64,000 nucleotides of DNA from Haloarcula laminariae (GTDB lineage: Archaea; Halobacteriota; Halobacteria; Halobacteriales; Haloarculaceae): contig NZ_JAMZFY010000001.1 of assembly GCF_025457605.1 (NCBI RefSeq), positions 186,001-250,000 on the forward strand. The letters are read 5' to 3'. The notes under the pieces were generated by a model. The model made no database searches. It saw nothing but the letters and a program-made list of their open reading frames with translations, and was not told where the DNA came from. Below are positions 4,466 through 59,472 of the stretch, piece after piece; position 1 is the stretch's first letter, and every line of letters starts with the position of its first letter. Made by a program: the position numbers and the translations under genes.

Positions 4466-4654
4466 TTAACTGTCGCTGACTGACTGAAACTGTTCAAGTT
4501 CATTTCGCACCTTATCGACATCTCCATCGTCGCCGTATTCAACAAGAGCAGCAAGACAGAGGCTCCGGACGAATCGGTCGTTACTATGCTTGATGACGTA
4601 TGCGAGCTGGTCTGAGTTTTCATTCACATACTGGTCCGGATCAAGATCTTCCAT
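4466..4654 (-). CDS. small acidic protein upstream of recombinase relative
   Basis: 62 residues from the ATG at 4654 (MEDLDPDQYV); a start at 4663 would add three. Mostly helical with a pattern like one HEAT-type repeat (RFVRSLCLAALVEYGD). Its stop is five bases before the start of the recombinase relative, so the two are co-transcribed. Unknown function; small genes of this kind often accompany integrases in haloarchaeal elements. Confidence 0.5.
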   Translation of the reverse strand: MEDLDPDQYVNENSDQLAYVIKHSNDRFVRSLCLAALVEYGDDGDVDKVRNELEQFQSVSDS

Positions 4655-10621: not shown

Positions 10622-10809
10622 GCATCTCTACTTACCAATTCAGTTGCCACAGTTCCAGCACCTGTTCTGAATATAGAAATCGCGCTAGCAACTACTGTTA
10701 GTACATTGAGCGGTATTCCTGCCCGGCATATAACACCTAGAATGCAGTTCTATACTGAGCACACATGGCGGGACAGAATGCGGTGTTGTAACTGTTCTAT
10801 GACTTCCTC

Positions 10810-14749: not shown

Positions 14750-15397
14750 TCAGAGTTCGCCGATAAATCCGTCCATCAACTTCTTCTCCCCCCGCCGGAG
14801 GTGTTCTTCCACCGTCCGTCTGCTGATGCCGAGCTCGTCGGCGATTTCGGCCGTCGTCGTCTCCCGAGGGATATCGTAGTAGCCGTTCTCGTAGGCCGTC
14901 TCGATGACCTGGCGCTGGCGCTGCGTGAACTCGGGGACGAGGTTTGCCGGCGCGATGAGCGGCTCACCGTGTTCGACGGTCTGTATCTCCCGTTTGGACT
15001 CGACGGTGACGCTTTTCCCGTCCTCGACGAGGTTCTGGTAGAAACTGGATATCTGGGCGGGTTTCAGCGCGACGACCTGAAAGCGCTTCTCGCCCCGCTC
15101 GTAGCGGAGCGGGGAGATGAGGAGACAGCCGGCGTCCTGTGCGTAGTCCTCCAGGAATCCGCTCGCCCGCTCGCGGAGACAACCCTTCGTGACGATAATC
15201 CCCTCGTCGACCTGACTCGCCTGCCCCTCGACGCCGACGGTAGAGCGGAGCATATCGAGGACCTCGTCGTCGACGGACCCGGCGACGTGGAGCAGGTCCC
15301 GGTCGTCGTTACACCAGAGCCGGATAGTTCGGTTCGTCCGGGCGGTGACGTCGCCGAACGTGCTCGAGTCGTTGACGCTGAATGAGGCGGTGTACAT
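14750..15397 (-). CDS. Bat-type transcriptional regulator (HTH_10)
   Basis: 215 residues. The C-terminal 55 residues are the bacterio-opsin-activator helix-turn-helix (LTQ-like start FTQRQRQVIETAYENGYYDI, then TTAEIADELGISRRTVEEHL). The N-terminal 150 residues match the small sensor half of the shorter Bat-like proteins, without a PAS domain. Such genes usually regulate an adjacent catabolic operon. It is transcribed away from the MFS gene, with 379 bases of shared upstream DNA, so it is a good candidate regulator of the histidine cluster. Confidence 0.8.
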   Translation of the reverse strand: MYTASFSVNDSSTFGDVTARTNRTIRLWCNDDRDLLHVAGSVDDEVLDMLRSTVGVEGQASQVDEGIIVTKGCLRERASGFLEDYAQDAGCLLISPLRYERGEKRFQVVALKPAQISSFYQNLVEDGKSVTVESKREIQTVEHGEPLIAPANLVPEFTQRQRQVIETAYENGYYDIPRETTTAEIADELGISRRTVEEHLRRGEKKLMDGFIGEL

Positions 15398-18081: not shown

Positions 18082-19260
18082 ATGGACGACCTCCCCCTGG
18101 CTGCCCGCGCCGAACGGATGCCCCAGTCCGGCATCCGCGAGATATTCGACAAGGCGCAGTCGTACGACGAGCTCCACGACCTGAGCATCGGCGAGCCGGA
18201 CTTCCCGACGCCGGAGCCGATAGCCGACGCCGTCGCGGGCGCGCTCGGCGACGGCATCGGCGGCTACACCCAGACGGTCGGGCGCGGCGACCTCCGGCGG
18301 GCGCTCTCCGAGAAACTCGATGCGCACAACGGCGTCGACGCCGAGCCCGAGAGCGAAATCATCGTGACGCCGGGAGCGATGGGCGCCCTGTTCGCCGCGA
18401 CACAGGTGCTCTGTGACCCCGGCGACGAGGTGCTCGTTCCGGCCCCCTACTGGCCGAACTACGCGGGCCATCTCGCCGCGGCCGGCACCGAACTCGTCCC
18501 CGTGCCGACCGACATCTCGACGGGGTTCACGCCGCGGGCGGCGGACCTCGAAGCGGCCGCGAGCGAGGACACCGTCGGCGTCCTGCTGAACACGCCGGGG
18601 AACCCGACCGGGGCCGTCGTCCCGTCCGACCGGCTTGAGGCAATCGGCGATACGCTGCGGGAGCGGGACTGGTGGGCCGTCCTCGACGAGACCTACGAGG
18701 ACCTCGTGTACGACGGCGCGACCCATCACTCGCTGGCCAGCGACCCGGCGCTGTTCGAGCGCACCGTCACCGTCCAGAGCTTCTCGAAGTCGTACGCGAT
18801 GACCGGCTGGCGAATCGGCTACGCCACCGGTCCCGCAAACGTCGTCTCGGCGATGCGGGTGTTGCAGGAACACACCGTCTCCAGCGTCGCGGAGCCCGCA
18901 CAGGTCGCCGCGAAGGCGGCATTGGAGAACCGCTCGGTCGTCACGGATATCCACGAGGCCTTCGCCGAGCGGCGGGAGCTCATCCTCGACCGGCTCAACG
19001 ACATCCCGGGCATCGACCCCGGCAGCCCCCAGGGGGCGTTCTACGTGTTCGCGGACGTCTCCGAGATCACGACGGACAGCCGCGCATTCACGGAGACGCT
19101 CCTGGAAGCGGAGCAGGTCGGAACCGTGCCCGGGTCCGTGTTCGGTCCCGGCGGCGAGGGGTACCTCCGGTTCTCGTACGCGGCGGACGCGGGGACGATA
19201 TCGGCGGCGATGGACGGGCTCGAACGCGTCGCCGAGTCCCACGCCGACTACTCGGGATAG
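18082..19260 (+). CDS. PLP aminotransferase, class I
   Basis: 392 residues of fold-type I. The PLP lysine is in VQSFSKSYAMTGWRIGY; the NxPGNPTG motif (LLNTPGNPTGAVV), the DETYEDLVYDG motif and the terminal Arg (GYLRFSYA) are all visible. It belongs with aspartate/aromatic aminotransferases of archaea; the substrate cannot be read from the sequence. It follows the hydroxyacid dehydrogenase by 51 bases, and its last 13 bases overlap the end of the convergent ABC ATPase gene. Confidence 0.9.
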   Translation: MDDLPLAARAERMPQSGIREIFDKAQSYDELHDLSIGEPDFPTPEPIADAVAGALGDGIGGYTQTVGRGDLRRALSEKLDAHNGVDAEPESEIIVTPGAMGALFAATQVLCDPGDEVLVPAPYWPNYAGHLAAAGTELVPVPTDISTGFTPRAADLEAAASEDTVGVLLNTPGNPTGAVVPSDRLEAIGDTLRERDWWAVLDETYEDLVYDGATHHSLASDPALFERTVTVQSFSKSYAMTGWRIGYATGPANVVSAMRVLQEHTVSSVAEPAQVAAKAALENRSVVTDIHEAFAERRELILDRLNDIPGIDPGSPQGAFYVFADVSEITTDSRAFTETLLEAEQVGTVPGSVFGPGGEGYLRFSYAADAGTISAAMDGLERVAESHADYSG

Positions 19261-20369
19261 ACGAGCACGTCCACCGGCTCCCAGCCGACGACGGCGGTGT
19301 CGCCGCGTTCGAATGTTCGCCCGGGGCCCGGGTCCTGCTGTGTCACGTCGATGGTCGCGTCGAGTTCGGGGACCGTCACGGTGTACTGCGTTCTGCTCCC
19401 CTCGAAACCGACCTGTTCGACTGTCGCCTCGTAGCTGTTCTCGGTCGGGACGTCGTCAACCGCGATGACGATGCGCTCGGCGCGGAGCCCGAGCCGGACG
19501 CGCTGTTCTAGCTCGAACTCCGCGTCCGTCTCGAACGTTATCTCGCCCCTGCCGACGGCGGCGATACCGTGCTGGCCCTCTTCCCCGGCGATGGTGCCGT
19601 CGAGCATCGTCGTGTCGCCGATGAACTCGGCGGCGAACGGCGTCGCGGGATTCGCGTATATCCCCTCGGCGGTGTCGAGCTGTTCGAGCCTGCCGTCGTT
19701 GATAACCGCGATGCGGTCGGCCATCGAGAGCGCCTCCGTCTGGTTGTGGGTGACGTGGACGATGGTCAGGTCTGTCTCGGCGTGGATGCGGGTGAGCTCC
19801 GAGCGCATCTCCTCGCGGAGCTTCTTGTCGAGGGAACTGAGCGGCTCGTCAAGCAGGAGGAGCGTCGGCTCGTAGACGATGGCACGCGCGAAAGCGACCC
19901 GTTGCTGCTGGCCCCCCGAGAGGTCGCCGACGGGCTTGTCGCGGTAGTCGACGGGCAGCCGGACGAGTTCGAGCGCCTCCTCGACTTGCTCGTCGATGTC
20001 GTCGGGGTCCTCCCGGCGCATCTTCAGCGGGAACGAGATGTTCTGCTGTACGGTCATATGCGGGAACAGCGCCAAGCTCTGGAAGACGAGACCGATGTCC
20101 CGCTCGTAGGGCGGCTCGTCGGATATCGGCTGGTCGTTGATGTATATCTCCCCCTCGCTGGGGGTATCGAAACCCGCAATCATATGCAGCAGCGTCGTCT
20201 TCCCCGCGCCGCTCGGCCCCAGAATCGTGAGGAACTCCCCGTCGCGTATCGGTATCGATACGTCGTCGACCGCGGTGAGGCTCCCGAAGTTCTTGGTCAC
20301 GCCGTCGATGTGTACGACTGACTCGTGCTCCGCCGGTGGGTCCCTGGTATCGGTCTCGCGTAAGGCCAT
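19248..20369 (-). CDS. ABC importer ATPase, spermidine/putrescine (PotA) type
   Basis: 373 residues from the ATG at 20369 (a GTG at 20384 is the longer option). Walker A GPSGAGKTT, Q-loop VFQSLALFPHMTV, signature DLSGGQQQRVAFARA, Walker B LLLLDEPLSSLD and the switch His (VHVTHNQTEAL) are intact. The last 110 residues form a TOBE domain. It is the ATPase of the importer whose binding protein and permeases lie at 22520-25460, but it is encoded on the opposite strand, divergent from hutH. Confidence 0.9.
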   Translation of the reverse strand: MALRETDTRDPPAEHESVVHIDGVTKNFGSLTAVDDVSIPIRDGEFLTILGPSGAGKTTLLHMIAGFDTPSEGEIYINDQPISDEPPYERDIGLVFQSLALFPHMTVQQNISFPLKMRREDPDDIDEQVEEALELVRLPVDYRDKPVGDLSGGQQQRVAFARAIVYEPTLLLLDEPLSSLDKKLREEMRSELTRIHAETDLTIVHVTHNQTEALSMADRIAVINDGRLEQLDTAEGIYANPATPFAAEFIGDTTMLDGTIAGEEGQHGIAAVGRGEITFETDAEFELEQRVRLGLRAERIVIAVDDVPTENSYEATVEQVGFEGSRTQYTVTVPELDATIDVTQQDPGPGRTFERGDTAVVGWEPVDVLVYPE

Positions 20370-20495
20370 ACGAGTGCCGTCCACCTCGCAACAAGTAAGT
20401 ATGACCCTCCGAATGGTGGGTCACCTAAGTGTCTGAGCGTTGATTTTATCGCCATCTCCCGCCGTCCGCCCAGCGACGACGGCGTTCCAGCGGAG

Positions 20496-20528
20496 AGTAT
20501 ATTTAAACGAACCGCCATATGACGGTTC
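20496..20528 (+). promoter_or_regulatory. hutH promoter with palindromic operator
   Basis: A TATA element (AGTATATTTAAAC, 20496-20508) is followed at once by GAACCGCCATATGACGGTTC (20509-20528), a palindrome with one mismatched pair. A transcript would start at about 20530, so a bound regulator would block initiation. It lies in the 333-base region between the divergent ABC ATPase gene and hutH. The leader would then be about 170 bases and contains a 47-codon frame from the ATG at 20567 whose stop (20710) overlaps the hutH start. Confidence 0.55.
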
Positions 20529-20702
20529 TATCTCTTTGCGATGTATTCGCATATCTCCAAGCGAACATGAGCGACTACAGTGAGCCGTCGGACGGGACAC
20601 ACCACAGTATGTGGATGGCGCCGCGGGCGCGGACCGACGTATCCCGCTGTGAGCACGTCCCGCCCGACTTCGGCGCCGCCGAGAGCGGTGGGGTGGTCGT
20701 CC

Positions 20703-22271
20703 ATGGATGAGGTCGTCGTCGACGGCGAGAGTCTCACGCCTGCGGACGTCGAGGCGGTCGCGCGCCACGACGCGCACGTGACCATCGCCGACGGTGCGCG
20801 CGAGGCGGTCCGCGAGTCCCGGGCGCGCATCGAGGACATCCTCGAAACCGACGAGGCGGTGTACGGCGTCAACACCGGGTTCGGCGAACTCGTCCAGCAG
20901 CGTATCCCCGAAGAAGACATCGGCACGCTCCAGCGGAACCTGCTCCGGAGCCACGCCGCGGGCGCGGGCGACGAACTCGGCACGCCCGAGGTGCGCGGGA
21001 TGTTGCTCACCCGACTGAACACGCTCGCGAAGGGGTTTTCCGGTATCCGTGTGCGGGTCGTCGAGCTCCTCGCCGACATGCTGAACGAGGGGGTCCATCC
21101 CGTCGTGAAATCCAAGGGGAGCCTCGGCGCGAGCGGTGACCTGGCCCCGCTCTCGCACCTCGCGCTCGTCACCATCGGCGAGGGCGAGGCGTGGGTCGAC
21201 GGCGAACGGCTGTCCGGCGGGGCGGCGCTCGACCGGCGGGGGCTCGACCCCGTTCGGTTGCGCGCCAAGGAGGGGCTGGCCCTCATCAACGGGACGCAGT
21301 TGACGGTCGCGCTCGGCGCGCTGGTCCTGCGGGACGCCGAGCGGGCCGTCCGGGCCGCCGACATCGCCGGCGCGCTCACCACGGAAGTCACGATGAGTAC
21401 CAGCGCGTCCGCCCACCAGCGCATCCAGGACGTGCGCCCCCACGCGGGTCACGCGGAGACCGCGCGGAACATCCGGGAACTCACGCGCGGCTCCGGCATC
21501 ATCGAGTCCCACCGGAACTGCCACCGCGTGCAGGACGCCTACTCGATACGGTGTATGCCACAGGTCCACGGCGCCGTCCGGGACGCCGTCGACCACCTCC
21601 GGGACGCCGTCGAGACGGAGCTCAACAGCGCCACCGACAATCCGCTGGTGTTCGACGCCGAACGGGTGGACGACCGCGCGAGCGGGACCGACCGGGCCGC
21701 CGTCCTCTCCGGCGGGAACTTCCACGGGGAGCCGCTCGCGTTGCCCCTCGATTACGTGACCGGCGCACTCACGGATCTCGCGGCCATCTCCGAGCGCCGC
21801 ATCGACCGGCTTCTCAACCCCAACATCCAGGAGGACCACCTCCCGCCGTTCCTGACCGACGACGACGGGCTCGAATCGGGGTACATGATAGCGCAGTACA
21901 CGGCCGCGGACCTCGTGAGCACGAACCGCTCTATCGGCCGGCCCGCCACGGACAACATCACCGTCAGCGGAAACCAAGAGGACCACGTGAGCATGAGTGC
22001 GACGAGCGCCTACCGCGCCCAGGAGGCGGTCAACAACACGCTGTACGTGCTCGCGAGCGAACTCACCTGCTCGGCCCAGGCCATGGAGTTCGTCCCGGAA
22101 CACGAGCCCGGGCGGGGAACTGGGGCGACGTACACGGCCATCCGAGAGCGGGTACCGCCGCTGGAGGAGGACCGGCCCGTCGGCGAGGACGTCGACGCCG
22201 TTCTCGAACTCGTCGTCAGTGACGAGTTGACGGAGCGCGTCGAATCCGTAATAGATACGTACGTCCGCTAG
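20703..22271 (+). CDS. hutH: histidine ammonia-lyase
   Basis: 522 residues, typical length. Deaminates L-histidine to trans-urocanate. The Ala143-Ser144-Gly145 triad that forms the MIO cofactor lies in GSLGASGDLAPL; the catalytic Tyr54 loop (YGVNTGFGEL), the TGTALI-like LINGTQLT and the QEDHVSM motif near the C-terminus are all present. The ATG at 20703 gives the normal N-terminus; the open frame extends 41 codons upstream but without family resemblance. It is separated from hutU and hutI by the ABC importer genes. Confidence 0.95.
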   Translation: MDEVVVDGESLTPADVEAVARHDAHVTIADGAREAVRESRARIEDILETDEAVYGVNTGFGELVQQRIPEEDIGTLQRNLLRSHAAGAGDELGTPEVRGMLLTRLNTLAKGFSGIRVRVVELLADMLNEGVHPVVKSKGSLGASGDLAPLSHLALVTIGEGEAWVDGERLSGGAALDRRGLDPVRLRAKEGLALINGTQLTVALGALVLRDAERAVRAADIAGALTTEVTMSTSASAHQRIQDVRPHAGHAETARNIRELTRGSGIIESHRNCHRVQDAYSIRCMPQVHGAVRDAVDHLRDAVETELNSATDNPLVFDAERVDDRASGTDRAAVLSGGNFHGEPLALPLDYVTGALTDLAAISERRIDRLLNPNIQEDHLPPFLTDDDGLESGYMIAQYTAADLVSTNRSIGRPATDNITVSGNQEDHVSMSATSAYRAQEAVNNTLYVLASELTCSAQAMEFVPEHEPGRGTGATYTAIRERVPPLEEDRPVGEDVDAVLELVVSDELTERVESVIDTYVR

Positions 22272-22416: not shown

Positions 22417-22519
22417 TTTAGGCCAACAGCAAAAACGAATACGGGGTTGTGGCGTATATAAATGTATATCCATATGGTGTATCTATTTGTATGTCCGTTG
22501 TTTCGCATGTTAAAGTGTC

Positions 22520-23641
22520 ATGAGCAACAGAACGACTGATTCGAACCGAACTGTAACGCGCCGGGCGTTCCTCGGGACCGCCGGCGGGGCGTCGGCGATA
22601 GCGCTTGCCGGCTGTAACGGGCTGGGCGGGAACTCATCGTCGGACGGCGAACCGTCGAAACCGGATAGCCTCGTCGTCCGCGCGTGGGGCGGCGCCTGGC
22701 AGGAGAATCTCCAGAGCGAGGTCGCGGAACCGTTCACCGACGAGACGGGCATCGAAATCGAGTACGACAACACCAGCGAAGAGGTCATGCAGGGCCAGAT
22801 TCGGACGGCGCTGAACCAGAACCGCGCGCCGCCGGTCAACGTCAACTGGTCGACGACGCTCCAGTCGTACAAGGCCGCGGACGCGGACCTGATGGTGCCG
22901 CTCGACACCGACGTGGTGACGAACCTCTCGGGGCTCCTTCCGGCCGCGCAACCCAACATCGGCGACGCCGACTGGCCGTTCGCGAGTCTCTACTCGTACG
23001 TGTACTCGCTGTCGTACAACACGGACAAAGTCGACTCGGCACCCACCTCGTGGGAGGAGCTGTGGGGCGACGGATGGAGCGACGGCCTCGGCTTCTATCA
23101 GGGCGGCACCGGGTTCGTCCCGGTGCTCGCAACGCTCGCGGACGAAGAGCTGGACGGGGACATGTCCGCGACGTGGGACCGCCTTGAGGAGCTCTCCGGG
23201 AACGTCGGCCTCATCGGCGACGACGACCAGCTCACGACGAACCTCATCGACGGCGAGATATCGGCGTGTACTCTCATCGGGGCGAACACGTACAACGCGA
23301 TGCAAGACGACCAGCCGGTCGACTACACGGTCCCCGAGGAGGGGGCCGTCGCGAAGCGCGACGCGATGTACACGCCACGGGGCCAGGAGGACGGCGCCGT
23401 CCACTGGGGCCAGGAGTTCATCAACTACGCAGCCAGCGCCGACATAAACGGCCCGTGGTCCGAGGGCCTCGGCGTCGCGCCGCTTCACGGCGACGCGGAA
23501 GTCCCCGACTGGATGGCCGAGTCCGAGATGTTCCCGACCAGCGAGGAGCAGTTCAACAGCATGATAACGGTCGACCCAGCCAACTACGTTGAGAACAGCT
23601 CGTACTGGTCCAGCCAGTTCAACGAGATCACGCAGTCGTAA
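22520..23641 (+). CDS. ABC substrate-binding lipoprotein (PotD-like)
   Basis: 373 residues. The N-terminus is a twin-arginine signal (TRRAFLGTAGG, Arg14-Arg15) with a lipobox ending in Cys32 (ALAGC), so the protein is exported folded and lipid-anchored. The mature part (LVVRAWGGAWQ, FTDETGIEIEYDN) matches periplasmic polyamine-type binding proteins (family 1, PotD/PotF). First gene of a binding protein-permease-permease operon. Inside a histidine-degradation cluster, histidine or urocanate is a likelier ligand than polyamine; inference. Confidence 0.9.
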   Translation: MSNRTTDSNRTVTRRAFLGTAGGASAIALAGCNGLGGNSSSDGEPSKPDSLVVRAWGGAWQENLQSEVAEPFTDETGIEIEYDNTSEEVMQGQIRTALNQNRAPPVNVNWSTTLQSYKAADADLMVPLDTDVVTNLSGLLPAAQPNIGDADWPFASLYSYVYSLSYNTDKVDSAPTSWEELWGDGWSDGLGFYQGGTGFVPVLATLADEELDGDMSATWDRLEELSGNVGLIGDDDQLTTNLIDGEISACTLIGANTYNAMQDDQPVDYTVPEEGAVAKRDAMYTPRGQEDGAVHWGQEFINYAASADINGPWSEGLGVAPLHGDAEVPDWMAESEMFPTSEEQFNSMITVDPANYVENSSYWSSQFNEITQS

Positions 23642-25460: not shown

Positions 25461-25688
25461 GGCGACGGCGCCTGCGCCCCTTCTCGTCGACGACCGTCCC
25501 GAAGTACATAGGCGAGTCTGTCGCGGAACCCGGACGTACTGTGCGGGCGCCTGTGACGGGCGGATTTCACCCCCAGAGTAGCCGGACTCCAGCGTCCGGG
25601 TCGCTCCCGGCTGGTCTTTGGACCGGTTAAAAATCCCCCTCCCTTCGGTGGCGAGTCAGTGTTTTCGGTGTGCGACTACAGTACGCGT

Positions 25689-27437
25689 ATGAGTCAGGAC
25701 GGACTCGAACCGTCGAGTGAGACGCCCAGCGACGAGTGGCTCTCGTATCAGGGAGCGCCGACAGGGACGGACATAGAGTGTGAGGGGTGGCGACAGGAGG
25801 CCGCCCTCCGCATGCTCAACAACAACCTCGACCCCGAGGTCGCCGAGGACCCGGAGGACCTCGTCGTCTACGGCGGGGCCGGACGCGCGGCCCGTTCCTG
25901 GGACGCCTACGACGCCATCCTCTCGGAGCTCCGGGAGCTGGGTGACGAGGAGACGCTGCTCGTCCAGTCGGGCAAACCGGTCGGCCGGTTCCCGACACAC
26001 GAACGGGCCCCGCGGGTCCTCATCGCGAACTCGAACCTGGTCGGGCACTGGGACAACTGGGACCACTTCCACGAACTCGAAGCCGACGGGAAGATAATGT
26101 ACGGCCAGATGACGGCCGGCTCGTGGGCCTACATCGGGACCCAGGGCATCATCCAGGGGACCTACGAGACGCTCGCCGAACTCGCCAGACAGGAGTACGA
26201 CGGCGACCTCCGGGGCAACACCGTCGTCACCTCGGGACTGGGCGGGATGAGCGGCGCCCAGCCGCTCGCGGTGACGATGAACTACGGCGTCTGTATCGTC
26301 GCCGAGATCGACGAGTCGCGTATCGACCGCCGCATCGAGACCGGCTACTGCATGGAGAAAGTCGGGACGCTTGACGAGGCCATCGAGCGCGCGTCGGAAG
26401 CCGCCGAGGCGGGCGAACCGTACAGCGTCGGCGTCCACATGAACGCCGCCGAGATGCTCGAAGAGATGCTGGAGCGGGACTTCGTCCCCGACGTCATCAC
26501 CGACCAGACCAGCGCCCACGACGTGATGGAGGGGTACTACCCGTCGGGCTACACGACCGAGGAGGCCGAGGAACTCCGCGAGCGCGACCCCGACCGGTAC
26601 CGCGAGGAGAGCCTCGACACCATGGAGCGGCACCTCGACGCCATCCTGACGATGCAGGACCGCGGCGCGGTCGCGTTCGAGTACGGCAACAACATCCGCG
26701 GGCAGGTACAGGAACACCGCGACCGGGACGACGCCTTCGACTTCCCCGGGTTCGTGCCGGCGTACATCCGTCCGCAGTTCTGCCGTGGCCGGGGCCCGTT
26801 CCGCTGGGCGGCTCTCTCGGGGGACCCGGAGGACATCTACCGCACCGACGAGGCGGTCCTGGAGCTGTTCCCCGAGAAGGAGCGCCTCGCCCGGTGGATC
26901 GACCTCGCCCAGGAGCAGGTGCAGTTCCAGGGGCTCCCGAGCCGCGTCTGCTGGCTCGGATACAACACCGACGGCGAGGGCGACGAGAGCGAGGAGTCCC
27001 TGACCGAGCGCGCTCGCTTCGCCCTCCGCATCAACGAACTCGTCGCCGAGGGTGAGATAGCGGCCCCCATCGTCGTCACCCGGGACCACCTCGACGCCGG
27101 CAGCGTCGCCAGCCCGTTCCGCGAGACCGAGGACATGAAAGACGGCACCGACGCGGTCGCCGACTGGCCCATCCTCAACGCCCTGCTCAACTGCGCCGCC
27201 GGCGCCGACATCGTCAGCGTCCACGACGGCGGCGGCGTCGGCATCGGCAACTCGCTGCACGCGAACAACCACGTCGTCCTCGACGGCTCGGAGCTGGCCG
27301 CCGAGAAGGCCCGCCGCGTCTTCACGACGGACCCGGGGATGGGCGTCGTTCGCCACGCCGACGCCGGCTACGAGGAAGCCATCGACGAGGCCGACGAGTC
27401 CGACGTGCCGATTCCCATGCGGGACAACGAGACATGA
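25689..27437 (+). CDS. hutU: urocanate hydratase
   Basis: 582 residues from the ATG at 25689. Converts urocanate to 4-imidazolone-5-propanoate using tightly bound NAD. The dinucleotide loop [13 protein letters not shown] (about 182-194), the motif [11 protein letters not shown] with the active-site Cys365 and the NAD-contact segment GNNIRGQ are intact. The frame stays open to 25659, but the conserved part starts after 25689. A 228-base gap upstream suggests its own promoter; hutI follows after 43 bases. Confidence 0.95.
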
Positions 27438-58686: not shown

Positions 58687-58881
58687 TTACAGTCGCTCGA
58701 GGTTGGTCGCTCGCGGACCCTTGTCCGCTTGCTCGATGTCGAACTCGACTTCCTGACCCTCTTCGAGGTCAGGGCCGCCGACATCTTCCATGTGGAAGAA
58801 GACGTCCTCGTCTTCCTCGTCAGTGTCGATGAAGCCGTAGCCGCCGGTGTCGTTGAAGAAATCGACTTTGCCTTTCGCCAT
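58687..58881 (-). CDS. cspA: cold-shock protein, tandem copy 4 of 4
   Basis: 64 residues, the usual size. RNA-binding motifs RNP1 (GGYGFID) and RNP2 (VFFHMED) are present. The protein is identical to copies 2 and 3. Genes are on the minus strand and this is the last of the row; two bases separate it from the preceding copy. An RNA chaperone that melts secondary structure. Confidence 0.95.
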   Translation of the reverse strand: MAKGKVDFFNDTGGYGFIDTDEEDEDVFFHMEDVGGPDLEEGQEVEFDIEQADKGPRATNLERL

Positions 58882-58883
58882 CG

Positions 58884-59078
58884 TTAGAGACGCTCCAGGT
58901 TGGTCGCTCGCGGACCCTTGTCCGCTTGCTCGATGTCGAACTCGACTTCCTGACCTTCTTCGAGGTCCGGACCGCCGACATCCTCCATGTGGAAGAAGAC
59001 GTCCTCGTCTTCCTCGTCAGTGTCGATGAAGCCGTAGCCGCCGGTGTCATTGAAGAAATCGACTTTGCCTTTCGCCAT
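58884..59078 (-). CDS. cspA: cold-shock protein, tandem copy 3 of 4
   Basis: Identical in protein sequence (64 residues) to the copies at 58687 and 59081, but the DNA differs by several silent changes (for example GGTCCGG for GGTCAGG near 58965). Same two-base spacing, so the copies repeat every 197 bases. Confidence 0.95.
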   Translation of the reverse strand: MAKGKVDFFNDTGGYGFIDTDEEDEDVFFHMEDVGGPDLEEGQEVEFDIEQADKGPRATNLERL

Positions 59079-59080
59079 CG

Positions 59081-59275
59081 TTAGAGACGCTCCAGGTTGG
59101 TCGCTCGCGGACCCTTGTCCGCCTGCTCGATGTCGAATTCGACTTCCTGACCCTCTTCGAGGTCAGGGCCGCCGACATCCTCCATGTGGAAGAAGACGTC
59201 CTCGTCTTCCTCGTCAGTGTCGATGAAACCGTAGCCGCCGGTGTCGTTGAAGAAATCGACTTTACCTTTCGCCAT
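59081..59275 (-). CDS. cspA: cold-shock protein, tandem copy 2 of 4
   Basis: 64 residues, identical in protein to the two following copies. RNP1 GGYGFID and RNP2 VFFHMED intact. Starts two bases after the stop of copy 1, so the four genes must be read from one mRNA. Confidence 0.95.
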   Translation of the reverse strand: MAKGKVDFFNDTGGYGFIDTDEEDEDVFFHMEDVGGPDLEEGQEVEFDIEQADKGPRATNLERL

Positions 59276-59277
59276 CG

Positions 59278-59472
59278 TTAGAGCCTCGTGACGTTGTTGG
59301 CTCGCGGACCCTTGTCCGCCTGCTCGATGTCGAATTCGAGCTCCTGTCCTTCCTCGAGGTCCGGGCCGCCGATGTCTTCCATGTGGAAGAAGACGTCCTC
59401 GTCCGCGTCCTCAGTATCGATGAAACCGTAACCGCCAGTGTCGTTGAAGAAATCAACCGTTCCTTTCGCCAT
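59278..59472 (-). CDS. cspA: cold-shock protein, tandem copy 1 of 4 (diverged)
   Basis: First gene of the row, 64 residues from the ATG at 59472. Same fold, with nine or so replacements against the other copies (MAKGTVDFF; DTEDADEDVF; EDIGG; GQELEF; end RANNVTRL). The best-placed copy to be the ancestor of the row. The shared promoter should lie in the 164 bases up to 59636. Confidence 0.94.
   Translation of the reverse strand: MAKGTVDFFNDTGGYGFIDTEDADEDVFFHMEDIGGPDLEEGQELEFDIEQADKGPRANNVTRL

Follow-up and report, generated by a model that had tools for sequence, protein, structure and literature searches.

Among the closest described systems are regulators of the HTH_10 family. Bat is a member of this family, the UAS of the Halobacterium bop promoter lies upstream of the TATA box and serves activation, and the known Bat-family members are mostly activators. 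NarO and its relatives are HTH_10 regulators of haloarchaeal anaerobic respiration, and the NarO-type operator is CGAA-N4-TTCG. The denitrification promoters of Haloferax mediterranei carry the semi-palindrome CGAAYATDKTYG; according to that report, the species has no NarO homologue and a link between the motif and NarO is not established there (PMC10062603). In bacteria, hut genes are described as controlled by HutC, a repressor of the GntR family (PMC12977541). The hut enzymes of Haloferax volcanii have been assigned to HVO_A0562 (hutU), A0561 (hutG), A0560 (hutI), and A0559 (hutH), a cluster described as not experimentally verified (PMC8305020). No study of the HVO_A0563-type regulator or of the putative haloarchaeal hut operator described below was found in searches of open-licence literature, and none of the papers retrieved in one of these searches mentioned HVO_A0563.

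Here, we analyzed a stretch of 64,000 nucleotides from Haloarcula laminariae (NCBI RefSeq assembly GCF_025457605.1, contig NZ_JAMZFY010000001.1, positions 186,001 to 250,000 of the forward strand; hereafter the window). It carries a cluster with the same enzymes as the probable hut cluster of H. volcanii. From the locus numbers, we infer that HVO_A0563, the Pfam source name for the N-terminal domain of the window regulator, adjoins hutU in H. volcanii. The window cluster differs in that hutH and hutU are each the first gene of a unit of their own, transporter genes are included, and the regulator lies several kb off. Like Bat and NarO, the window regulator belongs to the HTH_10 family. The dyad described below lies downstream of the TATA box, in contrast to the bop UAS. 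Like the H. mediterranei motif, it is a short haloarchaeal promoter dyad whose halves are 4 bp apart, but its half-sites are of the type TCC/GGA instead of CGAA/TTCG and it belongs to another pathway; at the three window sites GCC/GAC, TCC/GGT, and TCC/GGT were found in place of the NarO-type half-sites CGAA and TTCG. If the repressor reading preferred below holds, the system would resemble HutC in the local control of histidine catabolism, although the regulator is no member of the HutC family but of an unrelated one, and a Pfam scan of 10 window proteins gave no GntR match.

Results

The hut cluster and its Bat-type regulator

The hutH gene (20703 to 22271, plus strand) encodes histidine ammonia-lyase of 522 amino acids, as assigned by similarity and family knowledge; its start at 20703 was our choice from comparison with the related cluster of Natronomonas sp. 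CBA1123 (locus L003). An ORF of 47 codons (MSDYSEPSDGTHHSMW...) at 20567 to 20710 lies between the predicted transcription start and hutH and overlaps the hutH start (ATGGATGA). A search of 142 family genomes gave no match beyond the own genome except for a weak stretch of 19 residues, which we judged to be due to chance. Downstream follow an ABC-transporter binding-protein gene (22520 to 23641, family from Pfam) and hutU (25659 to 27437, probable start 25689), assigned to urocanase by Pfam. An ABC-transporter ATPase gene is located on the minus strand at 19248 to 20384. Elsewhere in the window (58687 to 59472), a 197-bp unit is present in four tandem copies that are 92% matching; their minus strand resembles repeated small cold-shock-type (CspA) genes.

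The candidate DNA-binding protein P0003 is encoded on the minus strand at 14750 to 15397, several kb from the hut promoters. Pfam assigned residues 4 to 147 to HVO_A0563_N (152.7 bits, cut-off 27) and residues 157 to 209 to HTH_10 (77.5 bits, cut-off 23.1), so the genome encodes a Bat-family regulator of the HVO_A0563 subfamily. Relatives at E ≤ 1e-30 were found in 167 of 391 Halobacteria genomes. The structural model had a mean pLDDT of 86.4. A fold search with it gave six matches at E ≤ 0.001 whose query TM-scores of at most 0.39 are not meaningful, with no informative match for the N-terminal domain; the HTH part resembled sigma region 4 (E 0.066), and no solved structure was related by sequence at E ≤ 0.01. 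In 55 aligned regulators, two cysteines (29 and 73) are invariant and a third (91) is nearly so, and the sensing domain may therefore possess a metal or redox site.

A near-palindrome next to the TATA box of hutH

The near-perfect 20-base palindrome noticed in a sequence-only reading was borne out by a dyad search: 9 of the 10 pairs of GAACCGCCATATGACGGTTC (20509 to 20528, no strand assigned) are complementary. It begins 1 base 3' of the TATA box TATTTAAA (20500 to 20507, plus strand). Archaeal transcription starts approximately 27 nt past the TATA centre. If this rule holds, hutH transcription is predicted to start near 20530, and the 20-bp dyad covers about −21 to −2. The position directly behind the TATA box, as proposed in that reading, was correct, but the dyad would lie between the TATA box and the predicted start, not over the start. 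An RNA hairpin was dropped as an explanation because the dyad precedes the transcription start, which is predicted, not mapped.

The proposed search of the genome for further copies found the palindrome to be unique at up to 2 mismatches; a single match with 3 mismatches lies on another contig, in what we read as coding sequence. Among 146 family genomes, 9 including the own one contain the full palindrome at up to 2 mismatches, counted regardless of genomic context. The inner 14 bp (20512 to 20525) are common to relatives, whereas the outer GAA/TTC arms are not conserved, and chance may account for the complementarity of the three outermost pairs. Dyads of 20 bp with at most one mismatched pair occur 13 times in the 64-kb window versus a mean of 4.35 in 20 Markov-1 simulations. 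When the 318-nt hutH upstream region was simulated 2000 times, 1.65% of the runs contained at least one. Taken alone, the palindrome is therefore modestly unusual and weak evidence.

A dyad at fixed distance from the TATA box in hutU promoters

The reading had also proposed to look for conservation upstream of hut genes in relatives. The hutH loci of relatives gave no promoter to compare because hutH directly follows hutI in most loci read; the regulator was therefore used as query, which yielded comparable hut promoters. We took 130 regulator loci, which are part of the relatives found and to which some genomes contributed two: 30 from the relative search, including the window and L003, and 100 fetched in addition. 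In 109 of them, hutU lies divergently beside the regulator; the window and L003 are outside these 109 promoters, which served for training. Six promoters with a misplaced anchor (L132, L135, L136, L152, L241, and L252) were dropped from the residue-base counts, the tree, and the start-codon distances reported below.

Promoters were anchored on the TATA box without regard to symmetry, with the offset defined as the distance of the dyad centre from the last A of the TATA box. The hutU promoters contained a dyad of the type TCC-N4-GGA whose centre lies 11 nt past the TATA box: pairing, averaged over six positions, peaked at 0.58 at offset 11 and did not exceed 0.36 anywhere else between offsets 4 and 29. 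With the fixed anchor, 85 of 109 promoters had CC-N4-GG at offset 11 and 10 had it at offset 13; no other offset between 4 and 40 accounted for more than 7. After a centring step the count rose to 97 of 109, but this step favours such sites, and the counts with the fixed anchor give the fairer picture. The window palindrome is also centred at offset 11, as are the dyads of the window hutU and binding-protein promoters. Conservation upstream of the hut genes of relatives was thus found as a dyad of the same type, at the same distance from the TATA box, beside regulator orthologs. The central window sequences are CC-CTTC-GG (hutU), CC-ATAT-GG (binding protein), and CC-ATAT-GA (hutH), the latter as in the L003 hutU promoter; GA in place of GG departs from the consensus.

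Matrix scan of the window and of the Natronomonas cluster

A structure-free covariance model (R1), for which 85 of 102 distinct promoters were selected manually, hit two places in the own genome, neither in the window. Unfiltered, it gave 11.4 bits for the binding-protein site, 10.2 for hutU, and 6.9 for hutH, the last among background. These low scores were attributed to a null model that is not GC-adjusted, and a GC-corrected TATA+dyad matrix was used, trained on the 109 promoters with none from the window. On both strands of the 64 kb, its top three matches were at 22455 (binding protein, 26.0), 25626 (hutU, 20.4), and 20500 (hutH, 18.6); the next-best match scored 9.2, and 30 simulated windows reached no more than 16.2. 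A reduced matrix from 84 promoters, which left out 22 of the window's family and L135, L136, and L152, gave 26.3, 20.8, and 17.6 in the same order (next 8.3). On 172,827 bases of other haloarchaeal loci no score reached 15, the best being two copies of one sequence at 14.9. Without the TATA box, the dyad part reached at most 15.7 in the window and did not stand out from simulations (mean 14.8, maximum 17.0).

The best match comprises TATATAAA followed by the putative operator TATCCAT/ATGGTGT (22455 to 22480, plus strand) 5' of the binding-protein gene. The second consists of the TATA-like box GTTAAAAA with CCTCCCT/TCGGTGG (25626 to 25651, plus strand) before hutU, and the third contains the putative hutH core CCGCCAT/ATGACGG (20512 to 20525, no strand assigned), with the hutH TATA box in register with the TATA columns. 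The minus-strand element TGACCCTCCGAATGGTGGGTCA (20402 to 20423) preceding the ATPase gene is an imperfect dyad; as a TATA+dyad match it scored 7.3 on the plus strand, below the simulated maximum. With its weak TATA box, this low score, and an L003 counterpart at 11.9, under the L003 simulated maximum, it can be considered a fourth operator only tentatively. When the own genome was searched with a loose operator pattern, 6 matches were obtained versus 13 for the reversed control, and no wider regulon is therefore claimed.

The Natronomonas cluster has another gene order and carries CTATTTAAATTAATCACCATATGACGGTTCTATGTCTTTG before hutU. The right part of this site is identical to the window hutH promoter; the left outer arm differs, and the left half of the core (ATCACC) departs from the consensus. 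The L003 binding-protein and hutU promoters scored 22.2 and 19.3 (simulated maximum 14.9). The sequence CCATATGACGGTTCTATNTCTTTG was found at up to 3 mismatches in 2 of 391 class genomes, the own one (G000) and one other (G131), probably that of Natronomonas sp. CBA1123. Two further elements were observed in L003. A perfect 24-bp palindrome, GGTGACCCGAATATTCGGGTCACC (10661 to 10684), lies just 3' of hutH at the start of the next ORF and is not a hut operator. Between the regulator and an aminotransferase gene (4599 to 4624, minus strand) there is a weak matrix match of 9.4 (13.0 without the window's family), possibly the regulator's own site.

These data bear on whether the palindrome has any function. 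That it arose by chance would fit the 13 such dyads in the GC-rich window, where they are not rare, the 1.65% probability in the upstream region, and the lack of the outer arms in L003. This reading has a very small probability in view of the independent matrix match in register with the TATA box and of a 24-mer with one free position that the window hutH promoter has in common only with the hutU promoter of one other genome among 391.

Hut loci with and without the regulator

As controls, 15 hut loci from family genomes were picked by hand. The five with the regulator adjacent gave matrix scores of 29.8, 25.6, 25.5, 22.0, and 10.8. In the ten without the regulator beside them (L261 to L267 and L270 to L272; hutU in view in nine, none in L262), scores were at most 6.7 over the fetched 8 kb and the operator was absent. 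Ten related genomes thus retain hut genes without an adjacent regulator and without the operator. In L264, an HTH-only match of 34% identity lies about 3 kb from hutU. In 8 of the 10 genomes, the regulator has no relative at E ≤ 1e-20, and in the other two only one of 31 to 32% identity. Physical linkage of the two elements in most genomes weakens the control, since the joint loss of regulator and operator is then not fully independent; it is strengthened because they lie apart in the window and in L003.

The suggestion that the Bat-type regulator of the cluster is a candidate is supported, the dyad accompanying its orthologs and being absent from the ten hut loci without it. Alternatively, another protein encoded elsewhere might bind the dyad, with the Bat-type regulator as a mere frequent neighbour that has another target. 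This would agree with the location of the regulator away from the hut promoters in both the window and L003, but it is quite improbable given the with/without pattern and the regulator content of the ten genomes. The fixed TATA distance could also point to a core-promoter element, such as an extended TATA box or initiator context, and not to a regulator site. The dyad symmetry, the absence from hut promoters without the regulator, and the lack of scores of at least 15 in the other haloarchaeal loci leave this explanation hardly any probability.

Recognition helix and operator bases

Residue X of the motif RRTxE[X]HLRR was tallied in 100 loci; three more rows were dropped, their helix being outside the text pattern. 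In raw counts, X = E goes with C at −6 (37/37) and G at +7 (35/37), and X = H with A at +7 (23/24). In the window regulator, X is E. The window hutH site carries CC at −7 and −6 and GG at +6 and +7; the window binding-protein site differs from this pattern, with TA and GT. When mapped on a tree built from the N-terminal domains, X changes only five times. Supported branches provide two independent pairs; 1.4 to 1.6 of them agree on average and the others show no difference, a test that lacks power. The association of the recognition-helix residue with the outer operator bases is suggestive only. Raw arm-to-arm pairing exceeded that of shuffles at ±7 (56/100 versus 29.7), ±6 (55 versus 41.7), and ±5 (59 versus 50.5), with no excess at ±1 (25/100 versus 29.0). 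Among the pairs listed, arm-to-arm covariation was unsupported on the tree in a tree-aware test that likewise lacks power, and the pair −5A/+5T runs the opposite way where it differs.

Discussion

The palindrome, whose sequence, recurrence in type across the class, fixed spacing to the TATA box, and co-occurrence with the regulator are established, is probably the hutH copy of a local hut-regulon operator with a core bound by a dimer of an HVO_A0563-type HTH_10 regulator. The same-type sites before hutU and the binding-protein gene, and tentatively that before the ATPase gene, would then constitute one local hut regulon. The dimer would directly bind the core CCGCCAT/ATGACGG, a site of the TCC-N4-GGA type. 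Less certainly, the dimer bound between the TATA box and the start may block polymerase loading, since the dyad occupies about −21 to −2. With similar caution, histidine or urocanate might release the bound dimer, where both the inducer and the sign of the control are conjectural.

We prefer repression relieved by histidine or urocanate, in line with the repressor site suggested in the sequence-only reading, with activation as the main rival. The same dimer at the same operator could activate hut, for example by assisting TFB or polymerase at the neighbouring TATA box in the presence of histidine. Its HTH_10 membership would suit this role, known Bat-family members being mostly activators, and a dyad abutting the TATA box at fixed spacing could suit contact with basal factors. 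However, the dyad is on the downstream side of the TATA box, in the zone that polymerase must occupy, whereas known archaeal activator sites lie upstream of the BRE, and we consider activation unlikely.

In 102 of 103 divergent promoters, the regulator start codon and the centre of the hutU TATA box are 24 to 30 nt (rounded) apart. With this distance, one TATA box might be shared by hutU and a leaderless regulator mRNA; 72% of the protein-coding transcripts of H. volcanii were reported to be leaderless (PMC4983044). On the repression reading, it is conceivable, though we would not bet on it, that the Bat-family protein is a widespread hut repressor in Halobacteria and that one TATA box serves both directions, with one operator picking which of them fires.

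An archaeal local regulator with its operator is an ordinary kind of thing; here the comparative signal is clear, and the concrete regulator was not previously assigned. Judged from sequence comparison, a switch sequence of the same type lies beside histidine-breakdown promoters in many salt-loving archaea. A regulator family known by a locus-tag domain name and present in 167 of the 391 Halobacteria genomes thereby gains a probable function and binding site, within a compact promoter architecture that is testable in genetically tractable haloarchaea. If the repressor reading is true, it would extend the Bat family to a TATA-proximal operator of a catabolic pathway.
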